In this document: one piece after another, positions 8,171-24,175 of the stretch
Numbering within the stretch: position 1 is the first letter of the stretch
Layout of the letters: every line of letters begins with the position of its first letter
Source: Nitrosotalea sp.
Lineage (GTDB): Archaea; Thermoproteota; Nitrososphaeria; Nitrososphaerales; Nitrosopumilaceae
Reading direction: 5' to 3'
Length of the DNA: 35,156 nucleotides
Assembly: GCA_025449485.1 (NCBI GenBank)
Contig: JANWJG010000014.1
Coordinates: 1 to 35,156, forward strand
Made by a program: the position numbers and the translations under genes
Notes under the pieces: model-generated
Seen by the model: only the letters and a program-made list of their open reading frames with translations
Database searches by the model: none
Told to the model about the DNA's origin: nothing

Positions 8171-9865
8171 TCAATAATAATGATGGGATGGTCTCTGCAT
8201 CTTTCCAAGCTTGTCAAAATGATCATGGGGCTTGTCCCCTCTTGCATGGGAATGAGCCTTGCCATCTCCATGAGTATGCGTATACATGACAGGCTTTCTC
8301 ATGACAACCTCATCAACACGTATCAATAATGATGCAACTTCTGCAGCTGTCTTGATCACTTGTTCTTTTACAACAAGGGGCTCTATGACATCCTGAGAAT
8401 ACATTTCTCTTACTCTTCTTTCCATAGCATCAATTCCATACCATGAATGGATTCTTCCATTATTGTGTTCCAAATTTTTATTTCTTAGCTGTACAATTGT
8501 ATCAACTACATTCATTCCAGAATTTCTTGCTATGGTCAGTGGAATTTCTTCAAGAGCGTCTGCAAAGTTTTGAACTACAACCTGTTCTCTTCCTTCAATA
8601 GAAAGAGATCGTTTCCTGATCTCATTTGCAATTATCATTTCAGTAGAGCCTCCTCCAGCTACTATTGATGGATTGATAAAGAAATCCTTGAGAACTGCAA
8701 TTGCATCAAGTATGGTGCGATGATATTCATCAAGCATTCTCTTAGAGTTTGCCCGCAATAATATGGTGACAGATTTTGGATTTTTGCATTCAGTTACAAA
8801 TACCATCTTGTCATCGCCTACAAATTTTTCATAAACCTTCCCTGCAAATCCCAAGTTTTTTTCATTCATGCTCTCAAGATTATTCACTATTGAGGCGCCA
8901 GTTGCTTTTTCTAGCCAGTGAATGTCATTTTCTTTTACTCGGCGAATCGATATGATATCTGCTCGTGATAGGTAGTGTAGGGCCAGTCGACTAATTCCTT
9001 TCTGGGAAATCACAACATTTGCACCCGAGTCAATTATCCTCCGTGTTTTCTCTTTGATGGTGTCACTTTCCCTTGAAATGTATGCCTGCATCTCTTGGGG
9101 TGTGTTTATGATTATCTCTGCATCCGTTTTGGTTCGTTCATTGTCAAGCTCTTCGTTTATCAAAAGAATCTTGGCTTTTTCAATGGATCTTGGCATGGCA
9201 GAACTATCTATTGTCTTGTCAATGACTACTCCCTTTACTAGTTCAATATCTGAAGTGTTACCTGGTTTTTCTTCTATTTTTATGTCATCTATCTCAATTT
9301 TCCTATCAACAAAATCTGCTATCATACAAAATGCATCAGTCACAAGTTCAGCTACAGATTTTTTTTCACACAGTATGGAAATGGCCTTTGATCTCAGACA
9401 GGTCTGTGCTAACTTTACCATGACTTCTTTATTTTTATAACTGGAAGATTTTGCAATTGACTTTAAAAATCTAAGAGCTTGCTCTGCAGCATTTTTGTAT
9501 CCTATTTCTATTATGGTTGGTGATATGCCCATGTCCAGTAATTTTTCTGCCCTTTCAAGCAAAGAGCCTGCCAAAAGAACCACTGATATTGTTCCATCTC
9601 CCACTTCATTGTCAACTGAGTTTGAAGCATCTATCATCACCTTTGCCGCTGGATGTTCAACATCTATCTTGCGTAACATTGTAGAGCCGTTCTTAGTTAG
9701 TGTAACCTCTCCTAGAAGATCAATGTACATTTTTTCAAATCCCCTTGGTCCAAATGAGCTCTTGATTAGATCTGCAATTAATTTGCCAGCAAGCAAGTTG
9801 TATCTTCTTGCTTCGTCGCCTGTAGAATATTGTGTACCGTCCCCTAATAGCTCTTTTGAACTCAT
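8171..9865 (-). CDS. Thermosome (group II chaperonin) subunit with His-rich C-terminal tail
   Basis: SSFGPRGFEKMYIDLLGEVTLT, EVGDGTISVVLLAGSLL, ILDAIAVL, IVAGGGSTE; C-terminus HTHGDGKAHSHARGDKPHDHFDKLGKMQRPSHHYY. Confidence 0.95.
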   Translation of the reverse strand: MSSKELLGDGTQYSTGDEARRYNLLAGKLIADLIKSSFGPRGFEKMYIDLLGEVTLTKNGSTMLRKIDVEHPAAKVMIDASNSVDNEVGDGTISVVLLAGSLLERAEKLLDMGISPTIIEIGYKNAAEQALRFLKSIAKSSSYKNKEVMVKLAQTCLRSKAISILCEKKSVAELVTDAFCMIADFVDRKIEIDDIKIEEKPGNTSDIELVKGVVIDKTIDSSAMPRSIEKAKILLINEELDNERTKTDAEIIINTPQEMQAYISRESDTIKEKTRRIIDSGANVVISQKGISRLALHYLSRADIISIRRVKENDIHWLEKATGASIVNNLESMNEKNLGFAGKVYEKFVGDDKMVFVTECKNPKSVTILLRANSKRMLDEYHRTILDAIAVLKDFFINPSIVAGGGSTEMIIANEIRKRSLSIEGREQVVVQNFADALEEIPLTIARNSGMNVVDTIVQLRNKNLEHNNGRIHSWYGIDAMERRVREMYSQDVIEPLVVKEQVIKTAAEVASLLIRVDEVVMRKPVMYTHTHGDGKAHSHARGDKPHDHFDKLGKMQRPSHHYY

Positions 9866-9942: not shown

Positions 9943-10824
9943 CTAGCTCTGAATTGTAGGTCCAGTTTTGCTGTACCTGTTAAAATTTCTTAGAATCTCT
10001 GTCAATGATTCTGTCAGAGCTATGATATCAGCAACAGAATCAGCAAGCATTCTGACAATAATGCCTGAATCCCGTGGCAAAGTGGAACAACTAGCCAAAA
10101 GAGGAGTATTTTCTGTAAATGTATTGATTTTATCTACAATGCTTTCTATCTGGATGAGACTGCCAATTATGTACATGCTAGAAAAGACATCTTTTTTGCC
10201 AAATACTGACTCAAGGCTTGCCTTGTCTTTTTGACCAAAACTCATGACATCTGTAAATATGGTCTGACCATTTCTGTGAGCTGTTGTGCGAAGAAAACAA
10301 AGATCGCAGTCAAACTTTTCACCAGATGCAATACGGCCTGCTATTACGATCTCAGAATAAATCAATACTGCATTATCATCTATCTCAAGATCTACTTGTT
10401 GATAAAATCTAGATGATTTGAATGGAATTATCTGGTGTGGAACAAATTCCAGATAACTTTTACTTTTACTGTGTATTCTGATGTATTGTGATGCATAACC
10501 TTCCTCCATCTTGTAAATTTTGGTTGCTGACTGGGTGGTGATTCTTGCCATGGAATTTTTTTCCATTGTGATATCAATTTTCTGTTTGTCTCCTTGTAAT
10601 ATTCCGCCAGACGATGACATGATGTAAATGTGTGCAAAATTAGGATAATCTGATTCTGGATACATTGCTTTTTGAATCAAAAATGGAGCTTTTGATAACA
10701 ATGATTTGATATATGTCTTGGAATCATCATTGTATAATTCAATCTCTATGGTACCATTCTGGCCTGGCATCATGAATTCTTTGTTTGTATAATTTTTGAA
10801 AATGTCAGGAATATGCAGAATCAT
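9943..10824 (-). CDS. ureD: Urease accessory protein UreD/UreH
   Basis: SSSGGILQGDKQKIDITM, TTQSATKIYKM, LEFVPHQIIPF, SFGQ; position in the ure cluster. Confidence 0.93.
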   Translation of the reverse strand: MILHIPDIFKNYTNKEFMMPGQNGTIEIELYNDDSKTYIKSLLSKAPFLIQKAMYPESDYPNFAHIYIMSSSGGILQGDKQKIDITMEKNSMARITTQSATKIYKMEEGYASQYIRIHSKSKSYLEFVPHQIIPFKSSRFYQQVDLEIDDNAVLIYSEIVIAGRIASGEKFDCDLCFLRTTAHRNGQTIFTDVMSFGQKDKASLESVFGKKDVFSSMYIIGSLIQIESIVDKINTFTENTPLLASCSTLPRDSGIIVRMLADSVADIIALTESLTEILRNFNRYSKTGPTIQS

Positions 10825-11489
10825 TTTGTTCTGTCCTTTCTAACTACGGGTTTTTTATCAAACAAGATTGATCTGATTATATCTTCTACAACATCTTCTA
10901 TGCCTTGACCTGTCTGACAGTTGACAAATACATATGGTCTACCACTCCTTATTTTTTCAGCATCTCTTTTCATTATGGATAGATCTGCTCCCACATGTGG
11001 TGCAAGATCAATCTTGTTAATGACAAGCAAGTCACAACTTTCTATCCCCAGTCCACCTTTCCTTGGATACTTGTCTCCTCCTGATACATCGATTATGTAA
11101 ATGAAATAATCTGCAAGGGCAGGACTAAAGGTAGTCATGACATTGTCTCCCCCGCTCTCAATGATTATCAAATCCAAGCTCGGGTCTTTTTTTTCTATTT
11201 CGTCAATTACGGCTAGATTGATTGTTGGATCTTCTCGTATGGCAGTGTGTGGACAACCACCTGTTGCTATTCCAATTATCATGTTTTCAGGCATGACTTT
11301 GAGCTCTGTAGACAAAATTCGCTGCATCCTTTGGGCGTCTTCTTTTGATATGACATCATTTGATATTATGCAGCACCGGTATCCCCTTTCTATCAAGACA
11401 GGTACAACTCTCTCAATGAGGCGCGTTTTTCCAGATCCTACCGGTCCACCAATTCCAATTTTTGGTATCTTTTTATTTTTCAAAACCAT
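10821..11489 (-). CDS. ureG: Urease accessory GTPase UreG
   Basis: GIGGPVGSGKTRLIE P-loop, GIATGGCPHTAIREDPTIN, ESGGDN, NKIDLAPHVGADL. Confidence 0.97.
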   Translation of the reverse strand: MVLKNKKIPKIGIGGPVGSGKTRLIERVVPVLIERGYRCCIISNDVISKEDAQRMQRILSTELKVMPENMIIGIATGGCPHTAIREDPTINLAVIDEIEKKDPSLDLIIIESGGDNVMTTFSPALADYFIYIIDVSGGDKYPRKGGLGIESCDLLVINKIDLAPHVGADLSIMKRDAEKIRSGRPYVFVNCQTGQGIEDVVEDIIRSILFDKKPVVRKDRTK

Positions 11490-11503: not shown

Positions 11504-12217
11504 TTATGTGATGAACATCTTTGAGCTTTCATGCTCATGAATCATTTGAAAAATATCTGTCATAGGAGTTAGCTGCCAAATATTGTTCAATGATTCTCTT
11601 TTGTTGTTCTTTGCAATGAAATTGATCTTATCTGAAAGCAGTGCAAGAATTTTTTGGCCACTGATGTGTTCTGTTATTCCAAGCTTGATCGCTGCCGCTA
11701 CTACATTTTGACTAAATGAATAAAGCATCATCCTCATACCGCTCTCTTCCGGAATTCCAAGAAATTCTGCAGCTATGCCAAGACAAACAGGATATGTCCC
11801 AACAGCTTGACCCGTTTCTATCTTTGTCTGAAATTCTTTTGCAAACTTGTTTTTCTGCTTCGATGTAATTTGGGTTATGCAATTGAGTATCTGCGAGCCA
11901 GATCTCACAGACGTATTTCTTACTTCTTTTATCAATCTCATGGAATAGAATAGATTGTCTGCTTCCACAAGTTCTTTGATGTTGTTATTTTTTGCAGCAT
12001 TCATGGCAGTCAAGAAAATTATGCAGTCGCAGGGAACTAGTTGAAACTCTATTTGTTGTGAAATGAAATTTAAAACATCTTCTTCATTTTTAATCATACC
12101 GTGTCTTGCAAGAGACTCTAAACCATTTGATAACCCAAACATTCCTGAGGGAAAAAAGGAATCTGACAGCTGCATTAAAAAAAACTCATGGTCAGTGTTC
12201 ATGCATATATGTTCCAT
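11504..12217 (-). CDS. ureF: Urease accessory protein UreF
   Basis: LMQLSDSFFPSGMFGLSNGLESL; conserved order E-F-G-D. Start may be the internal ATG at 12202. Confidence 0.93.
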   Translation of the reverse strand: MEHICMNTDHEFFLMQLSDSFFPSGMFGLSNGLESLARHGMIKNEEDVLNFISQQIEFQLVPCDCIIFLTAMNAAKNNNIKELVEADNLFYSMRLIKEVRNTSVRSGSQILNCITQITSKQKNKFAKEFQTKIETGQAVGTYPVCLGIAAEFLGIPEESGMRMMLYSFSQNVVAAAIKLGITEHISGQKILALLSDKINFIAKNNKRESLNNIWQLTPMTDIFQMIHEHESSKMFIT

Positions 12218-12692
12218 GTCGAGGTTGAAAAATCTGTTCTTCTGTATAGAACTCTAGATCCTTTCTCACATTCAGTAACAATTTTTCAAACGTCTCAGCC
12301 TCTAAATCTGTATGGATGGGAAATGAAAGAGTGTCATCTTTTATCACTATTGGTTTATGCCTATTTCCTATTACGTGGCCCAAAGTAATCAATTCAAAGG
12401 GATTTTTCTGTAATTTTTTTATCTTTACAGAGAGCACTTTTTCAGGTAATTGTTCCACAATGATGAATTTTTTGAGATTTGACACGATAACATCACCATG
12501 ATGCAATTCCGAGTCCATAATGAGCCCTATGTCTGTACCAAGATCGGTTTTCTTTCTTATTCTGCCTCTTTCCAGCTCTTGGCGTGGGATCTTGAGCTTC
12601 TCGCAGCTCTTTTTTGATTCCATTTGTTTAAATCGAGTCATCAATTTCTTGTCGTCAAAAATATTTCCAATCACTGATGTTATGGTAAGCAT
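12192..12692 (-). CDS. ureE: Urease accessory nickel chaperone UreE
   Basis: LGHVIGNRHKPIVI (conserved His), short C-terminal HGTYMHEH. Confidence 0.92.
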   Translation of the reverse strand: MLTITSVIGNIFDDKKLMTRFKQMESKKSCEKLKIPRQELERGRIRKKTDLGTDIGLIMDSELHHGDVIVSNLKKFIIVEQLPEKVLSVKIKKLQKNPFELITLGHVIGNRHKPIVIKDDTLSFPIHTDLEAETFEKLLLNVRKDLEFYTEEQIFQPRHGTYMHEH

Positions 12693-12782: not shown

Positions 12783-13085
12783 ATGATGCTTAATCCACGA
12801 GAAATTGATAAACTCTATATTTTTATGGCAGCTGAAGTTGCAAGGAAAAGAAAAGCAAGAGGATTGAAGCTCAATTATGTCGAATCAGTTGCATTGTTAG
12901 CAGATCATATAGTAGAAGGGGCTAGGGATGGAAAGTCTGTTTCTGAGCTGATGAGTTCTGGAAGAAAAGTCTTGACAAGAGATGATGTATTGCCAGGTGT
13001 ACCAGAATTAATCAAGACAGTACAAACTGAGGCAACCTTTGAAGACGGAACTAAACTTGTCACTGTACATGATCCAATAGTGTAA
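12783..13085 (+). CDS. ureA: Urease subunit gamma
   Basis: [48 protein letters not shown]. Confidence 0.97.
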
Positions 13086-13089
13086 TGCA

Positions 13090-13461
13090 ATGATTCCAGG
13101 AGAATATTTCCTAAATGATATGCCAATTATTGCAAATAAAGGCAAGAAAACAGTAAAGGTCAAAGTAAGCAACTCTGGAGATAGGCCAATACAGGTGGGT
13201 TCTCATACACATTTCTTTGAGACTAACAAGGCCCTTGTTTTTTCTCGCCAGAAATCTTATGGTTGTCATCTCAATATTCCATCAGGCACATCGGTGCGAT
13301 TTGAACCAGGGGATACAAAGGAAATAGAACTGACAGAATTTGGGGGGTTGAAGATAGTTTATGGGTTTAATGGACTTGTCAATGGCAAGCTCAGTACCAG
13401 AAAACAAATTGCACTCAAGAAAGCAAGAAAAAAAGGATTCAAGGATAGTGATAAGACATGA
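13090..13461 (+). CDS. ureB: Urease subunit beta
   Basis: [13 protein letters not shown]...[24 protein letters not shown]...[11 protein letters not shown]. Confidence 0.97.
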
Positions 13462-15170
13462 CACTGGTAATTCCTAGAAAACAATACGTGGATCTCTATG
13501 GACCTACAAAGGGTGATAAGATCAGACTTGCTGATACTGATCTTATAATTGAGATTGAAAAAGATTTTCAGAATTATGGTGATGAGATAGTTTTTGGTGG
13601 TGGCAAAAGTGCAAGAGATGGAATGGGACAAGCAAGTGGTGTCATCAGTAAAAATTCTCCAGATCTTGTCATAACAAACGCAATTATTCTTGATCCAGTT
13701 CTTGGTATTGTCAAGGCTGACATTGGCATCAAAAATGGGTTGATATCTGGAATAGGAAAAGCAGGCAATCCAAATGTTATGGACAAAATAGATATGATCA
13801 TATCTGCAAATACTGAGATAATTGCAGGTGAGCATACCATATGCACCCCTGGAATAATTGATACTCATATTCACTTTATTGCACCCCAGCAGGCAATAGA
13901 CGCAATTTGTAGCGGCACCACTACCATGATTGGAGGTGGAACAGGACCTGCTGATGGTACCAAGGCAACTACATGCACTCCTGGTCCTTGGAACATTCAC
14001 AGAATGCTTGAAGCACTTGATGAACTACCCCTAAATTTTGGCCTGCTTGGAAAAGGAAATGATTCACTAGAGCCTGCATTAATGGAACAAATTGCTGCAG
14101 GAGCTTGCGGCTTGAAACTGCATGAGGATTGGGGTACAACTCCTGCAACCATAGATGCAGCATTAAAAGTTGCAGATAAAACTGACACTCAGGTGGCTAT
14201 CCACACAGATACGCTAAACGAGTGTGGCTTTGTTGATGATACGATAGACGCAATAGGTGGGAGAACAATTCACACCTATCACACTGAAGGTGCAGGTGGA
14301 GGACATGCTCCAGATATCATGAAAATAGCAGGTAACAAGAATATTCTTCCTTCCTCTACAAATCCCACAAGACCATTTACAGTCAACACTCTTGATGAAC
14401 ACCTAGACATGATGATGGTGTGTCATCATCTGAATTCTTCTGTAAGAGAGGATGTAGCATTTGCAGAGTCAAGAATCAGAGGAGAAACAATAGCTGCAGA
14501 AGATGTCTTGCATGACATTGGTGCGCTGAGTATGTATTCTTCTGATAGTCAGGCAATGGGTAGAGTTGGAGAAGTAGGACTCAGAGCATGGCAAACAGCA
14601 GATAAAATGAAAAAAATGTCTGGTCGATTGCCCGATGAAATAGGAGATAATGATAATCTTCGTGTAAAAAGATATCTTGCAAAACTTACAATCAATCCTG
14701 CCATAACACATGGAGTCTCTTATCATGTTGGTTCTCTTGAGCCTGGCAAGTTAGCTGATATTGTAATGTGGTCTCCAGAATTTTTTGGTGTAAAACCAAA
14801 ACTTGTGATAAAAGGAGGTTTCATTGCTTATTCCTTGATGGGAGATCCAAACGCATCAATTCCAACACCAGAGCCAGTCTACTATAGACCAATGTTTGGT
14901 GCAATGGGAAAAGCAAATTATTCTACTTCCGTAACTTTTACTTCAAAACTTGCAATACGAAATGGTCTTGCAAAAAAATTAGGTCTAAAAAAGAAATTAC
15001 TTGCAGTCAAAAACTGTAGAAACATTGGCAAGAAAAATATGCTTTACAACAACGCTACTCCAAAAATAGAGATTGATCCTGAAACATACAAAGTCAAAGT
15101 TGATGGAAAAATAGCTACAACAGAACCGGCACAAAAATTATCCATGGCACGATTGTATCATTTATTCTAG
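13458..15170 (+). CDS. ureC: Urease subunit alpha
   Basis: [39 protein letters not shown] (carbamylated Lys), [23 protein letters not shown]. Confidence 0.98.
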
Positions 15171-15602: not shown

Positions 15603-16124
15603 ATGCCTAGTCAAGGATATGGAACCATAGGACTAAAGCCTGCAATCATATCCACACTACAAAAGTCTACGGATGAATATTATCCAGGAATGTTTCTTCC
15701 CAGTGCCTTGATAATCATGATGAATGAAATAAAACGAGAATATTACGAAGTTGGAATGCACAACATAAAGATCGATTTTTCGGGACGATACACATCATTG
15801 ACAGTTAGATCAGACGTTAAAATATGGTTTGAGGAAAACTATAAGATATTAAAAGAAAAGTATGAAAAAAAATACAAAGCAAATAACTTTACAAAATTTG
15901 CAAGTATCTTCATGCTCAACATATTTGAATCCAAAGCAGTCTCACAGAATAACATTATCAAATTAAAGGAGGCAGACTTTGACTGGTTAAAATCAGAATA
16001 TAGTCAAAGAAAGAAAGAATATGAGGTGAAATATGGAATAAGAACATTTGAGCAGTTTGCAGACATGTTCTTAAAGGAACTACTAGAAAGAATTAATTCT
16101 GCAAAAAAAATTCTGTCATTATAA
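15603..16124 (+). CDS. Hypothetical protein with internally duplicated domain
   Basis: Two copies of W(F/L)xxxYxxxKxxYExKYxxxxFxxFAxxF in the C-terminal two thirds. Confidence 0.65.
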   Translation: MPSQGYGTIGLKPAIISTLQKSTDEYYPGMFLPSALIIMMNEIKREYYEVGMHNIKIDFSGRYTSLTVRSDVKIWFEENYKILKEKYEKKYKANNFTKFASIFMLNIFESKAVSQNNIIKLKEADFDWLKSEYSQRKKEYEVKYGIRTFEQFADMFLKELLERINSAKKILSL

Positions 16125-17955: not shown

Positions 17956-19545
17956 CTACACAGGTCCTTTTTTATTTGTGTTAGAAATTTGTCTTACGTC
18001 TATAGGATTAGTCCATTCCTCAACACTAGCACCGCTAACCACATCTGCATCACTTGGAATAAGATAAACCACATCGTGTCTCGATGGTGTTCTTTTTTGT
18101 GTTGCTAGGCTGACTAGTATGAAGACTGCTAATGATATGAGTGGAGGAATCATTGTATCAAGTCCGCCATATTGGTAATAGGGACTATCAGATGGAGCTA
18201 TAGTTATGACAAAGAATAAGATTAGTCGTGTGATAGAACCTACTACAATTGATGCAATAGCACCAGATGCTGTTGATTTTTTCCAAAAGGTTCCAAAAAC
18301 TAGAGGAACAAGACATCCTGCTAAAACAATATCAAATGCCAAGACAAGATATGCGCCTGGTCTTGGAATGAGATAACCTAATGCAAAGGCGGTAAAGAAC
18401 ATGGGGATCACAAAGAGTCTTGTTGCAACAAGTAATTGTCGATCAGTCAGCTTTGGTCTCTTGAGTAATTTTGCTATAATATTTCGTTGCAACATGTTTC
18501 TAGATAGCACACTTGCTATAGCTAATGTACCACCATTGGCAGTAGACATACCACAACTGACTGTACTTACTAGCATCAGTATGCCAATTACTGCAGGTAC
18601 GTGTTTTATTGCAATGATTGGGTACAAAGTATAAGGATCCGCAAGCTTTGGCTCTAATGTAAATCCAATAATTCCTACCATGGTTACAGGTATTAGGATC
18701 AGGAGAGTTATTCCAGCACCCATGTAACAGCTTTTTGTTGCGGTACGGCCTCCATCTGCCGCAAATACTCTTTCCATAAAGTCTAACGCTACAATATCTC
18801 CTAATCCTAGTGATATTATTGCAGCCCAGTTTAACATAGCTCCACTACCTACATTGAGTAAGCCTGACATATCCATGAATCCGGCAGGCGCATTTGCTAC
18901 TATAGTGTCCAATCCACCAGGAATTGGAGACCATGGCCCTATGAAAAATAAAAAGCCCGCCCAAAATCCTACCACAGCTAAATAGATGTGGAAGATGTCT
19001 GTGTATGCACAAGAGAACAGTCCTCCAAAATACGTATACAGTAGAACAACTGCAGTTGAAATCAACATTGCATAAATTAACGGTATTCCTAAAACTACTG
19101 ATAAAATATAGCCACTTGCTGCGAGGTTACCGGCAACAAGAACTATGAAACTGACTGCCATGACAGTTCCTGACATTACTTCAGTAGTGTTTCCATATCG
19201 TCTATAGTAGAAATCTGCAAGTGTAATCATGTTCATACGGTTAAACCGTTTTCCAAAAAATAATCCAGTCAACACAAGACAAATAGCTAAACCCATGGGA
19301 ATGACAGCGCCTCCCCAAAAACCACCTGTGAATGTTAACGCGACATTTCCAAGAGATGCATTGCCATCAACTGCTTCTGACACAAGCATTGTGCCGATGA
19401 AGAAAAGCGGTAAACTTTTTCCAGCAACAATATATCGTTTACTACTTTTCTTGACAAATTTTACTGCGATAACCCCAATGAATGCGGTTACACCAACGAA
19501 TGCCATAACGATGATTGGATAATAAAGTGGAATTGCATCAACCAT
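17956..19545 (-). CDS. Sodium:solute symporter (SSS) family, putative urea (DUR3-like) transporter
   Basis: 529 aa, about 13 hydrophobic segments; SSS signature region around GGLFSCAYTDIFH. Urea specificity is inferred from the urease context. Confidence 0.8.
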   Translation of the reverse strand: MVDAIPLYYPIIVMAFVGVTAFIGVIAVKFVKKSSKRYIVAGKSLPLFFIGTMLVSEAVDGNASLGNVALTFTGGFWGGAVIPMGLAICLVLTGLFFGKRFNRMNMITLADFYYRRYGNTTEVMSGTVMAVSFIVLVAGNLAASGYILSVVLGIPLIYAMLISTAVVLLYTYFGGLFSCAYTDIFHIYLAVVGFWAGFLFFIGPWSPIPGGLDTIVANAPAGFMDMSGLLNVGSGAMLNWAAIISLGLGDIVALDFMERVFAADGGRTATKSCYMGAGITLLILIPVTMVGIIGFTLEPKLADPYTLYPIIAIKHVPAVIGILMLVSTVSCGMSTANGGTLAIASVLSRNMLQRNIIAKLLKRPKLTDRQLLVATRLFVIPMFFTAFALGYLIPRPGAYLVLAFDIVLAGCLVPLVFGTFWKKSTASGAIASIVVGSITRLILFFVITIAPSDSPYYQYGGLDTMIPPLISLAVFILVSLATQKRTPSRHDVVYLIPSDADVVSGASVEEWTNPIDVRQISNTNKKGPV

Positions 19546-19955: not shown

Positions 19956-20471
19956 CTAAGACTTCATTTTCTTTAGTTTACCAAAAAGTAACGGATCTAA
20001 CTTTCTTGCAGTATCAAAACTTCTTTGAGATTCATTTTCTTTTCCTAGCATAGATAGTCCACGGCCTTTGTTGTACCATGCTTTTGCGTATTTTTCATTG
20101 ATTTCTATTGCTTTGTTGAAGCATTCAACTCCTTCAACAAGTTTTCCTAATTTTAGGAGCGTCAATCCTTTGTTGTGCCAGGTTATGGAATTAGACGAAT
20201 CAATCTCTAATGCCCTGGAAAACGATTCTAATGCTTCATTTTTTCTTCCTTTCTTATCCAACATCAAGCCACGATCCCCCCAAGCAAAATCATTTTCTGA
20301 GTTCATTTCTATAGCCTTGTTAAAATATTCAAGGGCTTTGTCATAATGCCGATCGTTAGCAAGATCTTCCCCTAATTGTACCAACTCTTCTGAAGCTTCT
20401 TTTCTGGAAGCTTTTTTGTATTTCACTGTAGGAACTTCTGACTGATTTTTCTTAAACCAAGAAAATATCAT
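19956..20471 (-). CDS. TPR-repeat protein
   Basis: Tandem TPRs (YDKALEYFNKAIEMN..., NEALESFSRALEID..., VEGVECFNKAIEIN...). Track start is 20522; MIFSWFKK at 20471 looks more natural. Confidence 0.85.
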   Translation of the reverse strand: MIFSWFKKNQSEVPTVKYKKASRKEASEELVQLGEDLANDRHYDKALEYFNKAIEMNSENDFAWGDRGLMLDKKGRKNEALESFSRALEIDSSNSITWHNKGLTLLKLGKLVEGVECFNKAIEINEKYAKAWYNKGRGLSMLGKENESQRSFDTARKLDPLLFGKLKKMKS

Positions 20472-20539
20472 ATCATAGTTATGTAACACGCTATGATTTA
20501 AATTAGTATTTATGAAAAACAAATTAGGAAAATTTACGA

Positions 20540-20918: not shown

Positions 20919-22043
20919 GTGATTAATATGGGTGCAGAATTTTATGGAGAATCATACCGGGGCAATGACGAACCAATTTTTGTGGGCATTCCTACGTTCT
21001 TGAAATTGCCTTTGCTTAAAAATAAGGCAGAACTGGAAAAAGTGCGTCCAGATGTTGCCATAATAGGTGAACCTTTTGATTTTGGGACAACTATTAGACC
21101 AGGTGCCAGATATGGACCTAGAGCTATAAGAGCAGCTTCAACAGTACCATCTCCTCCGTACGAGCACTTCAACATTGAAACAGGTGTTGATCCATTTGGA
21201 GTTTTTAAAACAGTTGATTATGGAGATGTGAATATTGTACCAGGCGATGTGGTAGAATCCCACAGAAGAATGACTGACAAGGTTAAAGAAGTGTTAGATA
21301 TTGACGGCATTCCTGTCATGCTTGGTGGTGATCATTCCATCACTTTTGCAAATGTACGAGCCTTTGCAAAGAAATACAAGAACATAGGAATGATTCACAT
21401 TGATACGCATGCTGACTGTGCACCACAGGGTTTGTGTGGTTTCAAGTATGATCATGGGGCTCACATTAGAAGAATAATGGAATTAGGATGTCTAAAAGGA
21501 AAGAATTACACCCTAATTGGACCTCGTGGATACTGGCCAGGTCCAGATCTATACAAGTGGATGGCAGATCAAGACTTTCAATGGTTCACTATGCTTGATG
21601 TAGAAGAGTTAGGCATAGATAGAATTGCCAAAGAGGCAGCAGACAGAGCTAATGACAATGTCGATGCAGTGTACATTAGTTGGGACATTGATACATTTGA
21701 CCCAGCATATGCTCCAGGAACTGGAGAGCCAGAACCAAACGGACTCACCTCCAGAGAAGGAATGAGACTGATGAGATTACTTTCATCCTCGTTTGATCCC
21801 GACAAGTTTGCTTTTGACTTGGTCGAAGTAGCCCCCAACTATGATGTCAGTGATGGTAATTCGTATAGTGGCGGAATCACTTCAGGTCTTGCAAACCGCT
21901 TGATAGTAGAGCTCTTAGCAGGACTATCACTCACAAAGAAAGGAGAGACTGAAGGTAGACCAGTAAGACCAAAATCTTATCGTGGTACAGGGAACACATA
22001 CAGCTTTGGTAAACCTAAAGCCCAGATTCCGAAAAGGAATTGA
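20919..22043 (+). CDS. Arginase/agmatinase-family ureohydrolase (agmatinase, guanidinobutyrase or guanidinase)
   Basis: GVP/GIPTFLKLP, DFGTTIRPGARYGPRAIR, MLGGDHSITF, HIDTHADC, SWDIDTFDPAYAPGTGEPEPNG: all metal-ligand motifs of the family. Confidence 0.93.
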   Translation: MINMGAEFYGESYRGNDEPIFVGIPTFLKLPLLKNKAELEKVRPDVAIIGEPFDFGTTIRPGARYGPRAIRAASTVPSPPYEHFNIETGVDPFGVFKTVDYGDVNIVPGDVVESHRRMTDKVKEVLDIDGIPVMLGGDHSITFANVRAFAKKYKNIGMIHIDTHADCAPQGLCGFKYDHGAHIRRIMELGCLKGKNYTLIGPRGYWPGPDLYKWMADQDFQWFTMLDVEELGIDRIAKEAADRANDNVDAVYISWDIDTFDPAYAPGTGEPEPNGLTSREGMRLMRLLSSSFDPDKFAFDLVEVAPNYDVSDGNSYSGGITSGLANRLIVELLAGLSLTKKGETEGRPVRPKSYRGTGNTYSFGKPKAQIPKRN

Positions 22044-22462
22044 TTAGAATCGAGGTCTTGATAGAGGGAGAGCCAGACATTCTTCCCTCTATCAAACTCT
22101 TTGAATTCAAAGATGAGGATGAGGCAATTTTTCTCAATGTCATAGAAATGGTCAAAGACAAACTCTCAAGAAATTTGAGGCTAAACACTCATGAAACTCT
22201 ACATGTATTTTGTGCATATGTTGTTAGTGAAATTCGTTCAGGAAAATCAGAATCGCAAATCATAGATAACTCATCAAAAATTTTAACAAGAGACAATGTT
22301 TTGTTCGGGGTACCAGAAACCTTAAGACAAATTACGTTCAATATTACCGTAGATAATTTGCCAAAAAAGATAATCCAATTTATTGAACCAATTCCAACTA
22401 TGAATTACGTAATGGCAGATCCCAGAGCAGTTGTGGTAACCAATTGTGAGAAACAGAAATAA
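22040..22462 (+). CDS. Orphan UreA-like (urease gamma fold) protein
   Basis: RNLRLNTHETLHVFCAYVVSEIRSGKSESQIIDNSSKILTRDNVLFGVPETLRQ aligns along its length with UreA of this window; TTG start overlaps the upstream stop (TTGA). Confidence 0.85.
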   Translation: MIRIEVLIEGEPDILPSIKLFEFKDEDEAIFLNVIEMVKDKLSRNLRLNTHETLHVFCAYVVSEIRSGKSESQIIDNSSKILTRDNVLFGVPETLRQITFNITVDNLPKKIIQFIEPIPTMNYVMADPRAVVVTNCEKQK

Positions 22463-22762: not shown

Positions 22763-23206
22763 ATGAAGAAAAAACAAAGATCATCTCATGATGACGAGAG
22801 AAATGTCATGAGAATAAGTATGTCCTTATCAGCCAAACTTTTGGCTGAATTTGATCGTGCGATGAAAAAAGCAGGATATTCTGATAGATCAAAGGCAATA
22901 CAGACTGCCCTGCATTCATTTGTAGATGAATATGGATGGAAGGGAAATGATAATCATGAAGGGGCAGGTGCAATAGTTTTGTTGTATGACAATCATACGT
23001 ATAACCATGACTCTGAATCTACAGAATCGCAGCATGACTATACCGACATTATCAGTGCTGTAACGCATACCCATCTTGATCATGAAAATTGTCTGGAAAC
23101 AATAATGGTCAAGGGAGAAATAGGAAGGATAAAAGAACTGGCTAGAAAAATTTCAAAGAATCGTGGAATCAAAAGTTTGAAGATCAATTTCGTAACTATG
23201 GTCTAG
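22763..23206 (+). CDS. nikR: Nickel-responsive regulator NikR
   Basis: RHH N-terminus (VMRISMSLSAKLLAEFDRAMKKAGYSDRSKAIQTAL) plus THTHLDHENCLETI; H-(10)-H-x-H-(5)-C spacing of the four Ni ligands conserved. Confidence 0.93.
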   Translation: MKKKQRSSHDDERNVMRISMSLSAKLLAEFDRAMKKAGYSDRSKAIQTALHSFVDEYGWKGNDNHEGAGAIVLLYDNHTYNHDSESTESQHDYTDIISAVTHTHLDHENCLETIMVKGEIGRIKELARKISKNRGIKSLKINFVTMV

Positions 23207-23365: not shown

Positions 23366-24175
23366 ATGGCAGACGCCTGGTCTTTTATCTTGGTGTCAAT
23401 ACCTGTGATGATACTGTTTGGAATACGTCATGGATTAGACGTTGATCATATTACTGCAATTGATAATCTTGTTAGGTTACACAATGCCACAAAAAAATCA
23501 AGACTAGTAGGGGCGGGATTCAGTTCTGGCCACATGATGTCCGTTCTTGCCGAAATGATTTTCATCATATATGTAGTTGGCAGCATTACTAGCACAGGCA
23601 ACCTACAGTTTTGGGGAGGCATCACAGGTGCAATAGCACTAGGTACAATTGGTGCAGTCAACATCTATGCAATGAAAAAATGGGGCAAGAGCGGTTCTGC
23701 AATACTTGCAAGCAAGGTACTCAACAGAGTTGGAATACTTGGTCCAGTAGGCTCTTCTTTTGTAACAGGCATGGTATTTGGCCTGGGCTTTGATACTGCG
23801 ACACAAATTTCTGCAATTACAATATCTGCAGTGGCATCAGCTACTACAGGAATCCAGACAGCACTGATTCTCTCAGGATTCTTTGCACTTGGCATGATCC
23901 CAGTGGATACACTAGACAGTGTCATGATACGCTCTGCATTCTCTAGAATATTTGACACCAAGGGTTTCCGGTACATGACATATGGATTGAGTGGAGTTGC
24001 ACTCTTTGTTGCCGCATTTGAATCATATTCAACAATAACTGGTAACAACATACTTTCACCGTTAGCAGGTCCAGTCTTGGCAGGTTCCATACTTGCGATA
24101 TCATTTGGATATGCATTTGCAACAAGAAAGAAAAAATTGCAGCGTCATACTGAAAGCTCTAAAGAAAAACTCTAG
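23366..24175 (+). CDS. Nickel/cobalt permease, NiCoT (HoxN/NixA) family
   Basis: RHGLDVDHITAIDNLVR signature, VFGLGFDTATQISAI, GMIPVDTLDSVMIRSAF; strong SD aaggaggt upstream. Confidence 0.95.
   Translation: MADAWSFILVSIPVMILFGIRHGLDVDHITAIDNLVRLHNATKKSRLVGAGFSSGHMMSVLAEMIFIIYVVGSITSTGNLQFWGGITGAIALGTIGAVNIYAMKKWGKSGSAILASKVLNRVGILGPVGSSFVTGMVFGLGFDTATQISAITISAVASATTGIQTALILSGFFALGMIPVDTLDSVMIRSAFSRIFDTKGFRYMTYGLSGVALFVAAFESYSTITGNNILSPLAGPVLAGSILAISFGYAFATRKKKLQRHTESSKEKL

Follow-up and report, generated by a model that had tools for sequence, protein, structure and literature searches.

A UreA-like protein encoded with a lineage-specific ureohydrolase in ammonia-oxidising archaea, possibly as its accessory factor

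The locus and its urease genes

The window, i.e., the whole stretch of DNA that was analysed, comprises 35,156 nucleotides of Nitrosotalea sp. (GenBank assembly GCA_025449485.1, contig JANWJG010000014.1, positions 1 to 35,156 of the forward strand). It carries a complete set of urease structural and accessory genes, followed by an arginase-family gene with a small UreA-like gene directly behind it, and by genes related to nickel:

8171..9865, minus strand: divergent group II chaperonin with a His-rich C-terminus, adjoining ureD (Cpn60_TCP1, 1.9e-151)
9943..10824, minus strand: UreD (PF01774, 4.6e-48)
10821..11489, minus strand: UreG (TIGR00101, 2.0e-72, over the cut-off)
11504..12217, minus strand: UreF (8.4e-32)
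12192..12692, minus strand: probable UreE, from its position upstream of ureF on the same strand (same order in two other loci, L136 and L148)
12783..13085, plus strand: canonical UreA, urease gamma (Urease_gamma, 7.6e-45)
13090..13461, plus strand: UreB, urease beta, from its position as the reading frame between ureA and ureC (same order in other loci)
13458..15170, plus strand: UreC, urease alpha (Urease_alpha, 4.5e-52)
17956..19545, minus strand: SSS-family transporter, probably for urea (Pfam SSF, 1.9e-24)
20919..22043, plus strand: arginase-family ureohydrolase, 374 aa, GTG start (Pfam Arginase, 3.1e-79)
22040..22043, plus strand: TTGA, in which the UreA-like start codon overlaps the ureohydrolase stop codon (conserved across the class)
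22040..22462, plus strand: UreA-like partner, 140 aa, TTG start (Pfam Urease_gamma, 2.5e-11), with an N-terminal β-hairpin (residues 2-23), a UreA-fold core (about 24-117) and a tail predicted to be disordered
22763..23206, plus strand: NikR-type nickel-responsive regulator (NikR_C, 7.5e-26; NCBIfam nickel responsive regulator, 4.4e-37, over the cut-off)
23366..24175, plus strand: NicO-family nickel permease (Pfam NicO, 1e-19)

The original prediction for this stretch had described the 374-aa and 140-aa reading frames, the overlap of the TTG at 22040 with the ureohydrolase TGA, and a real UreA at 12783 that is followed by ureB and ureC about 9 kb from the UreA-like gene. All of these are present as described. 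The UreA-like gene is also an orphan, as had been claimed, with neither ureB nor ureC beside it, and the whole genome contains exactly two Urease_gamma genes, i.e., this one and the normal ureA.

Urease is present in practically all genomes of good completeness that encode the ureohydrolase, and the apparent exceptions are incomplete assemblies. The most striking of these, G202, is a broken contig carrying the end of ureC. Genus g41 had seemed to be a urease-free case, with UreD, UreF, UreG and the gene pair, and seemingly no UreA or UreC. Its ureC is truncated at a contig edge, so the support that it had lent to shared maturation proteins was dropped. A normal UreA is also retained in every well-assembled genome that has the UreA-like protein.

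Two further observations concern the urease genes themselves. At G079:C1:1734136-1735491, second copies of ureG and ureD that are broken by frame breaks and stops lie about 6-8 kb from the pair, which suggests that a second accessory gene set for urease has decayed there. In the window, an Rfam match to 5_ureB_sRNA at 13611-13901 on the minus strand is antisense to ureC. Such matches recur in other urease loci of ammonia-oxidising archaea (AOA), and probably reflect recognition of urease coding sequence by the model.

The ureohydrolase

All six metal ligands of the ureohydrolase, H139, D162, H164, D166, D256 and D258, are present and conserved in the alignment. With both the Arginase profile and the six ligands satisfied, the protein is placed by its sequence within the arginase/ureohydrolase superfamily. 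The ligands are compatible with nickel and with manganese alike and do not discriminate between them. Against the NCBIfam agmatinase equivalog the protein scores 156.1 bits, below the cut-off of 174.3 bits, and the closest PDB chains are a guanidinobutyrase and the guanidinases 7esr and 9fek. The enzyme represents a distinct clade under the agmatinase cut-off, adjoining urease genes. The genome of the window encodes three arginase-family proteins including this one, the other two being closest to the agmatine ureohydrolase 3pzl. Most AOA have two to three copies of speB, annotated as agmatinase (PMC10753782), and the present ureohydrolase is presumably one of these annotated copies.

The specificity pair of guanidinase consists of Thr97 and Trp305 (PMC11410670). 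When these residues, taken from that study, were mapped onto the ureohydrolase by us, T58 aligned with Thr97 and Glu270 with Trp305. The motif around Glu270 reads GTGEPEP in 66 of 67 genomes and GTGQPEP in the other one. A simple GdmH-type guanidinase was rejected as an identity for the enzyme, Trp305 being replaced by Glu270 and only the Thr of the pair being kept. The acid at Glu270 may serve to bind a positive charge carried by some larger guanidino compound. A Guanidine-I riboswitch near a GdmH-type gene is typical, although not strictly defining. In the window and nine related loci, no guanidine riboswitch, Guanidine-I included, reached the Rfam gathering threshold.

The ureohydrolase ends in a conserved C-terminal tail with the pattern PVRPxxYRGxGxTYxFG...IPKR. 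A role of this tail as a peptide docking the partner was ruled out, since it is equally kept where the UreA-like protein has been lost and is therefore not partner-specific.

For the survey beyond the class, the ureohydrolase was used as query rather than the UreA-like protein. A scan of GTDB with two conserved peptide patterns gave 89 relatives; among the 80 listed, all were from this archaeal group, and the close relatives of the locus were Thaumarchaeota and Nitrosopumilales records, which identifies the source of the window as an ammonia-oxidising archaeon. Moreover, when 200 genomes were sampled from the phylum, ureohydrolase matches at E ≤ 1e-60 occurred only within the window's own family. 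As far as seen in these genomes, the enzyme appears to be confined to ammonia-oxidising archaea.

Homology and fold of the UreA-like protein

The likeness of the 140-aa protein to UreA, proposed in the original prediction, was borne out by the Urease_gamma profile (PF00547), against which it scores 44.3 bits with a cut-off of 23.9, and by PDB urease gamma chains matching it at about 1e-8. The structure search that had also been proposed gave the same answer. An AlphaFold model based on 58 orthologues (pLDDT 89.9, pTM 0.81) found 2fvh, a urease gamma, as its best Foldseek match (E 2.1e-6, TM 0.80 over the target), and the top 18 matches were all ureases. In the model, an N-terminal hairpin with strands at 2-9 and 17-23 precedes the UreA helices and the C-terminal hairpin. 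The N-terminal extension, estimated at about 35 aa in the original prediction, is actually about 19-23 aa long, as UreA Met1 corresponds to about residue 20 and the Pfam match starts at residue 24; it bears the conserved motif V-x-G-[ED]-P-D-x-x-P. The C-terminal tail exists as claimed, but it is predicted to be disordered (pLDDT below 50 for residues 130-140) and its length and sequence vary among orthologues.

The protein shares with urease gamma the core fold and the motifs N-x-x-E, V-x-x-GVPE and P-I. It differs in its added hairpin, in its faster evolution, in being without a UreB/UreC partner and tied to the gene of another enzyme, and in the loss of many invariant residues. At most positions that are strictly conserved in UreA, the residue differs; E45, G46, A47, Q81, E83-F86 and H96 (UreA numbering) are gone, and the H of HDPI is among the missing invariant residues. 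Both urease gamma equivalogs score below their cut-offs (42.6 against 123 bits for the NCBIfam model, 36.2 against 82.3 for TIGR00193). The alignment of the UreA-like protein contains no conserved His or Cys fit for a metal carrier role, which would argue against the protein carrying metal itself. Altogether, a UreA paralogue rather than a duplicate urease subunit is supported.

Conservation and evolution of the gene pair

To define the spread of the pair, 400 genomes of the class were sampled, and a UreA-like match was counted if it scored above ordinary UreA. All 67 matches, found in 65 genomes, lie directly behind the ureohydrolase gene on the same strand, and among these matches there is no case of a UreA-like gene without the enzyme. 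In most genomes checked, the start and stop codons of the pair overlap or abut (ATGA, TTGA, GTGA or TAATG). The overlap in the window is therefore not a matter of chance, as it recurs with the stop codon of the same enzyme. In an independent collection, the named GTDB genomes, the pair was found in 67 of the 74 loci with enough downstream sequence, in records labelled Nitrososphaera, Nitrosocosmicus, Nitrosarchaeum, Nitrosotenuis, Nitrosopumilus and Cenarchaeum. The ureohydrolase itself, accompanied by urease and urea transport, occurs in part of the class (86/400 sampled genomes, at least 24 genera). In five loci, the genes of the pair share a reading frame, and a fold of the read-through fusion, computed from a shallow alignment, gave pLDDT 62 and pTM 0.56.

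The original prediction had suggested a survey of the pair in related genomes, and both the adjacency throughout the class and the Urease_gamma match came out in its favour. Its idea of a co-opted UreA fold stands as far as partnership with the ureohydrolase is concerned, which the adjacency, the overlap and the constant presence of the enzyme support. As judged from the genomes compared, the pair is a fixed unit in ammonia-oxidising archaea, in which a lineage-specific ureohydrolase is joined by a urease subunit that has been exapted, and a partnership of the two predicted proteins is well supported by genomics. The suggested link to the urease complex is unlikely to run through the urease slot, since much of what is invariant in UreA has been lost and a normal UreA is kept in every well-assembled genome.

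In the tree, the UreA-like proteins form one clade, cleanly apart from UreA (support 96/91), and their identity to the UreA of their own genome is 17-36%. Over 24 genomes, the ureohydrolase has a median identity of 83% and UreA one of 76%, against 40% for the UreA-like protein (minimum 22%), and the ureohydrolase shows 72-100% identity across the class. The UreA-like protein evolves about 10 times faster than the enzyme. Its dN/dS is 0.12-0.40 compared to 0-0.045 for the ureohydrolase; it is therefore a maintained protein under purifying selection, albeit a faster-evolving one. The copy nearest to UreA, with 36% identity to its own UreA and without the hairpin, is found in the deep-branching genome G112, although this placement is not firm because of a long branch. 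Six examined genomes keep the enzyme and miss the UreA-like protein, corresponding to about three losses on the enzyme tree. These lineages retain urease and a ureohydrolase of nearly unchanged sequence, so the UreA-like protein is not essential for activity everywhere. Fast yet purifying evolution, together with losses in which the enzyme is retained, fits an accessory protein.

Nickel and urea genes in the neighbourhood

Besides the NicO permease of the window, a different NicO/HupE-like permease is found in 16 other neighbourhoods, directly after the pair or after the enzyme where the UreA-like gene is missing. In G112 (L148), ureohydrolase, UreA-like, NicO, ureA, B, C, E, F, G and D follow one another in this order on one strand. 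The ureohydrolase of this genome (L148 9524-10837, minus strand), and of this genome only, has a C-terminal extension with the His-rich stretch HKHSDRFGRTHIHSHKHGHHAHNH, which hints at a putative nickel-binding tail. The SSS-family transporter lies near the pair in 26 of the 39 neighbourhoods; urea transporters of the SSS type have been described in AOA urease loci (PMC5797428). Judging from this context, i.e., the permease, NikR and the His tail in one genome, the ureohydrolase is probably nickel-dependent. The nickel genes near the pair may also serve urease alone. HypA (0/71 genomes) and HypB (0/50 genomes) gave no match over the cut-off, and the best matches to the HypB model in the 50 genomes were UreG.

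Other genes recur in these neighbourhoods. The chaperonin behind ureD has a His-rich, nickel-like tail, THTHGDGKAHSHARGDKPHDHFDKLGKMQRPSHHYY, and about 23 neighbourhoods of the ureohydrolase pair contain an orthologue with 48-60% identity that has the same tail. An Hsp60 homologue has been described in AOA urease loci and reported absent from Nitrosopumilales (PMC5797428). Here the chaperonin was found in Nitrosopumilales, unlike in that report, of which the sections consulted do not mention the tail. A 173-aa protein at 15603-16124 (plus strand), with no Pfam or NCBIfam match, is near the pair in 20 of the 39 neighbourhoods, and a TPR-repeat protein at 19956-20522 (minus strand), divergent from the ureohydrolase gene, in 22 of the 39.

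Possible roles of the UreA-like protein

It is quite possible, if still short of an even chance, that the UreA-like protein is an accessory factor for the assembly or metallation of a probably nickel-dependent ureohydrolase, perhaps by way of UreEFGD. This proposal is based on the combination of an enzyme from the superfamily of the nickel ureohydrolases and a HupE/NicO permease with a UreA-derived protein, in cells that have UreEFGD and where HypA and HypB were not found. Nickel chaperones activate the nickel ureohydrolases MefH, DmgH and GdmH, and the MefH genes have those for HypA and HypB next to them and one for a HupE homologue downstream (PMC11399263). In the proposed scenario, an ancient duplication of ureA, probably inside the urease operon of an early ammonia-oxidising archaeon, would have yielded a small protein that stopped serving urease. 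It would now be synthesised by coupled translation with the lineage-specific ureohydrolase and would aid the assembly of this enzyme or the nickel loading of its dinuclear site. UreEFGD, already in the cells for urease, would probably take part, with the UreA-like protein perhaps presenting the ureohydrolase to them. We infer nickel use by the enzyme, contact between the two proteins and involvement of UreEFGD. The specific form of this proposal, in which the exapted subunit is a maturation adaptor and UreEFGD load nickel into an unrelated arginase-fold enzyme, so that one metallochaperone system would serve both enzymes, is possible but less likely than not. In solved activation complexes, UreD touches UreB and UreC, and the HpUreA residue involved is E177 (PMC10121161), which by its number we assign to the beta part of the fused chain. 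A contact between the gamma domain and UreD is thus not known, which argues against the UreEFGD step.

The main rival, that the UreA-like protein is a permanent non-catalytic subunit, structural or regulatory, of a hetero-oligomeric ureohydrolase, is a real though doubtful possibility. Strict pairing and overlapping start and stop codons are typical of stoichiometric partners, UreA itself is a structural subunit, and the nickel ureohydrolases MefH and DmgH can need a second, non-catalytic subunit (PMC11399263). An obligate interface would however be unusual between an enzyme so strongly conserved and a partner so variable, and the losses occurred without obvious change in the enzyme; both points speak mildly against a permanent subunit. 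Docking of the ureohydrolase to urease, with the UreA-like protein as a scaffold through which released urea is handed on, is improbable. The UreA fold, the shared neighbourhood (a single operon in G112) and the presence of urease in practically all sufficiently complete genomes that have the pair would agree with it, but metabolism alone predicts that co-occurrence equally well, and urea is small, abundant and diffusible. Moreover, the residues listed above from E45 to H96 are gone, and the UreA slot is occupied by normal UreA. That the protein is a spare gamma subunit, or the decaying remainder of another urease, has been largely refuted and is very improbable. The Urease_gamma homology and the second urease gene sets of some AOA (PMC4084955) could point that way, but ureB and ureC are not adjacent, identity to the genome's own UreA is low, the clade is separate, dN/dS indicates maintenance, and the protein has a conserved N-terminal hairpin of its own. 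Among the three options of the original prediction, a partner, metallation or docking subunit, metallation would, from the gene context, be the most economical, and it is this accessory role that we retain.

Comparison with known systems and significance

GdmH from Synechocystis and the comammox guanidinase (7esr/7oi1 and 9fek) resemble the AOA enzyme in their superfamily, in the threonine (T58, Thr97) and in the genetic link to urease and nickel. The AOA enzyme differs by Glu270 in place of Trp305, by the lack of a detected guanidine riboswitch and by a different accessory protein. A screen of AOA did not find guanidine-degradation genes (PMC11410670), and none of the known guanidine pathways was recovered from these archaea in published screens (PMC11410670, PMC12625717). 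The operons for metformin and dimethylguanidine hydrolases (hypA, hypB, mefH alpha, mefH beta, hupE) likewise combine a ureohydrolase with accessory genes and a HupE-type nickel permease, with urea-metabolism genes near. The AOA locus differs in that HypA and HypB were not found, in its single ureohydrolase gene, and in the UreA-derived protein located between enzyme and permease. No published description of the pair was found in the open-access literature, to which the search was confined.

The range of organic nitrogen compounds available to AOA, which rank among the major nitrifiers, is still being worked out. The substrate of this uncharacterised, highly conserved ureohydrolase would add a nitrogen source for AOA. 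The pair may also bear on how the comammox guanidinase acquires its metal with no known nickel chaperone, a point left open by PMC11410670. If the partner works in metallation, a urease subunit would have been re-used as an accessory factor.
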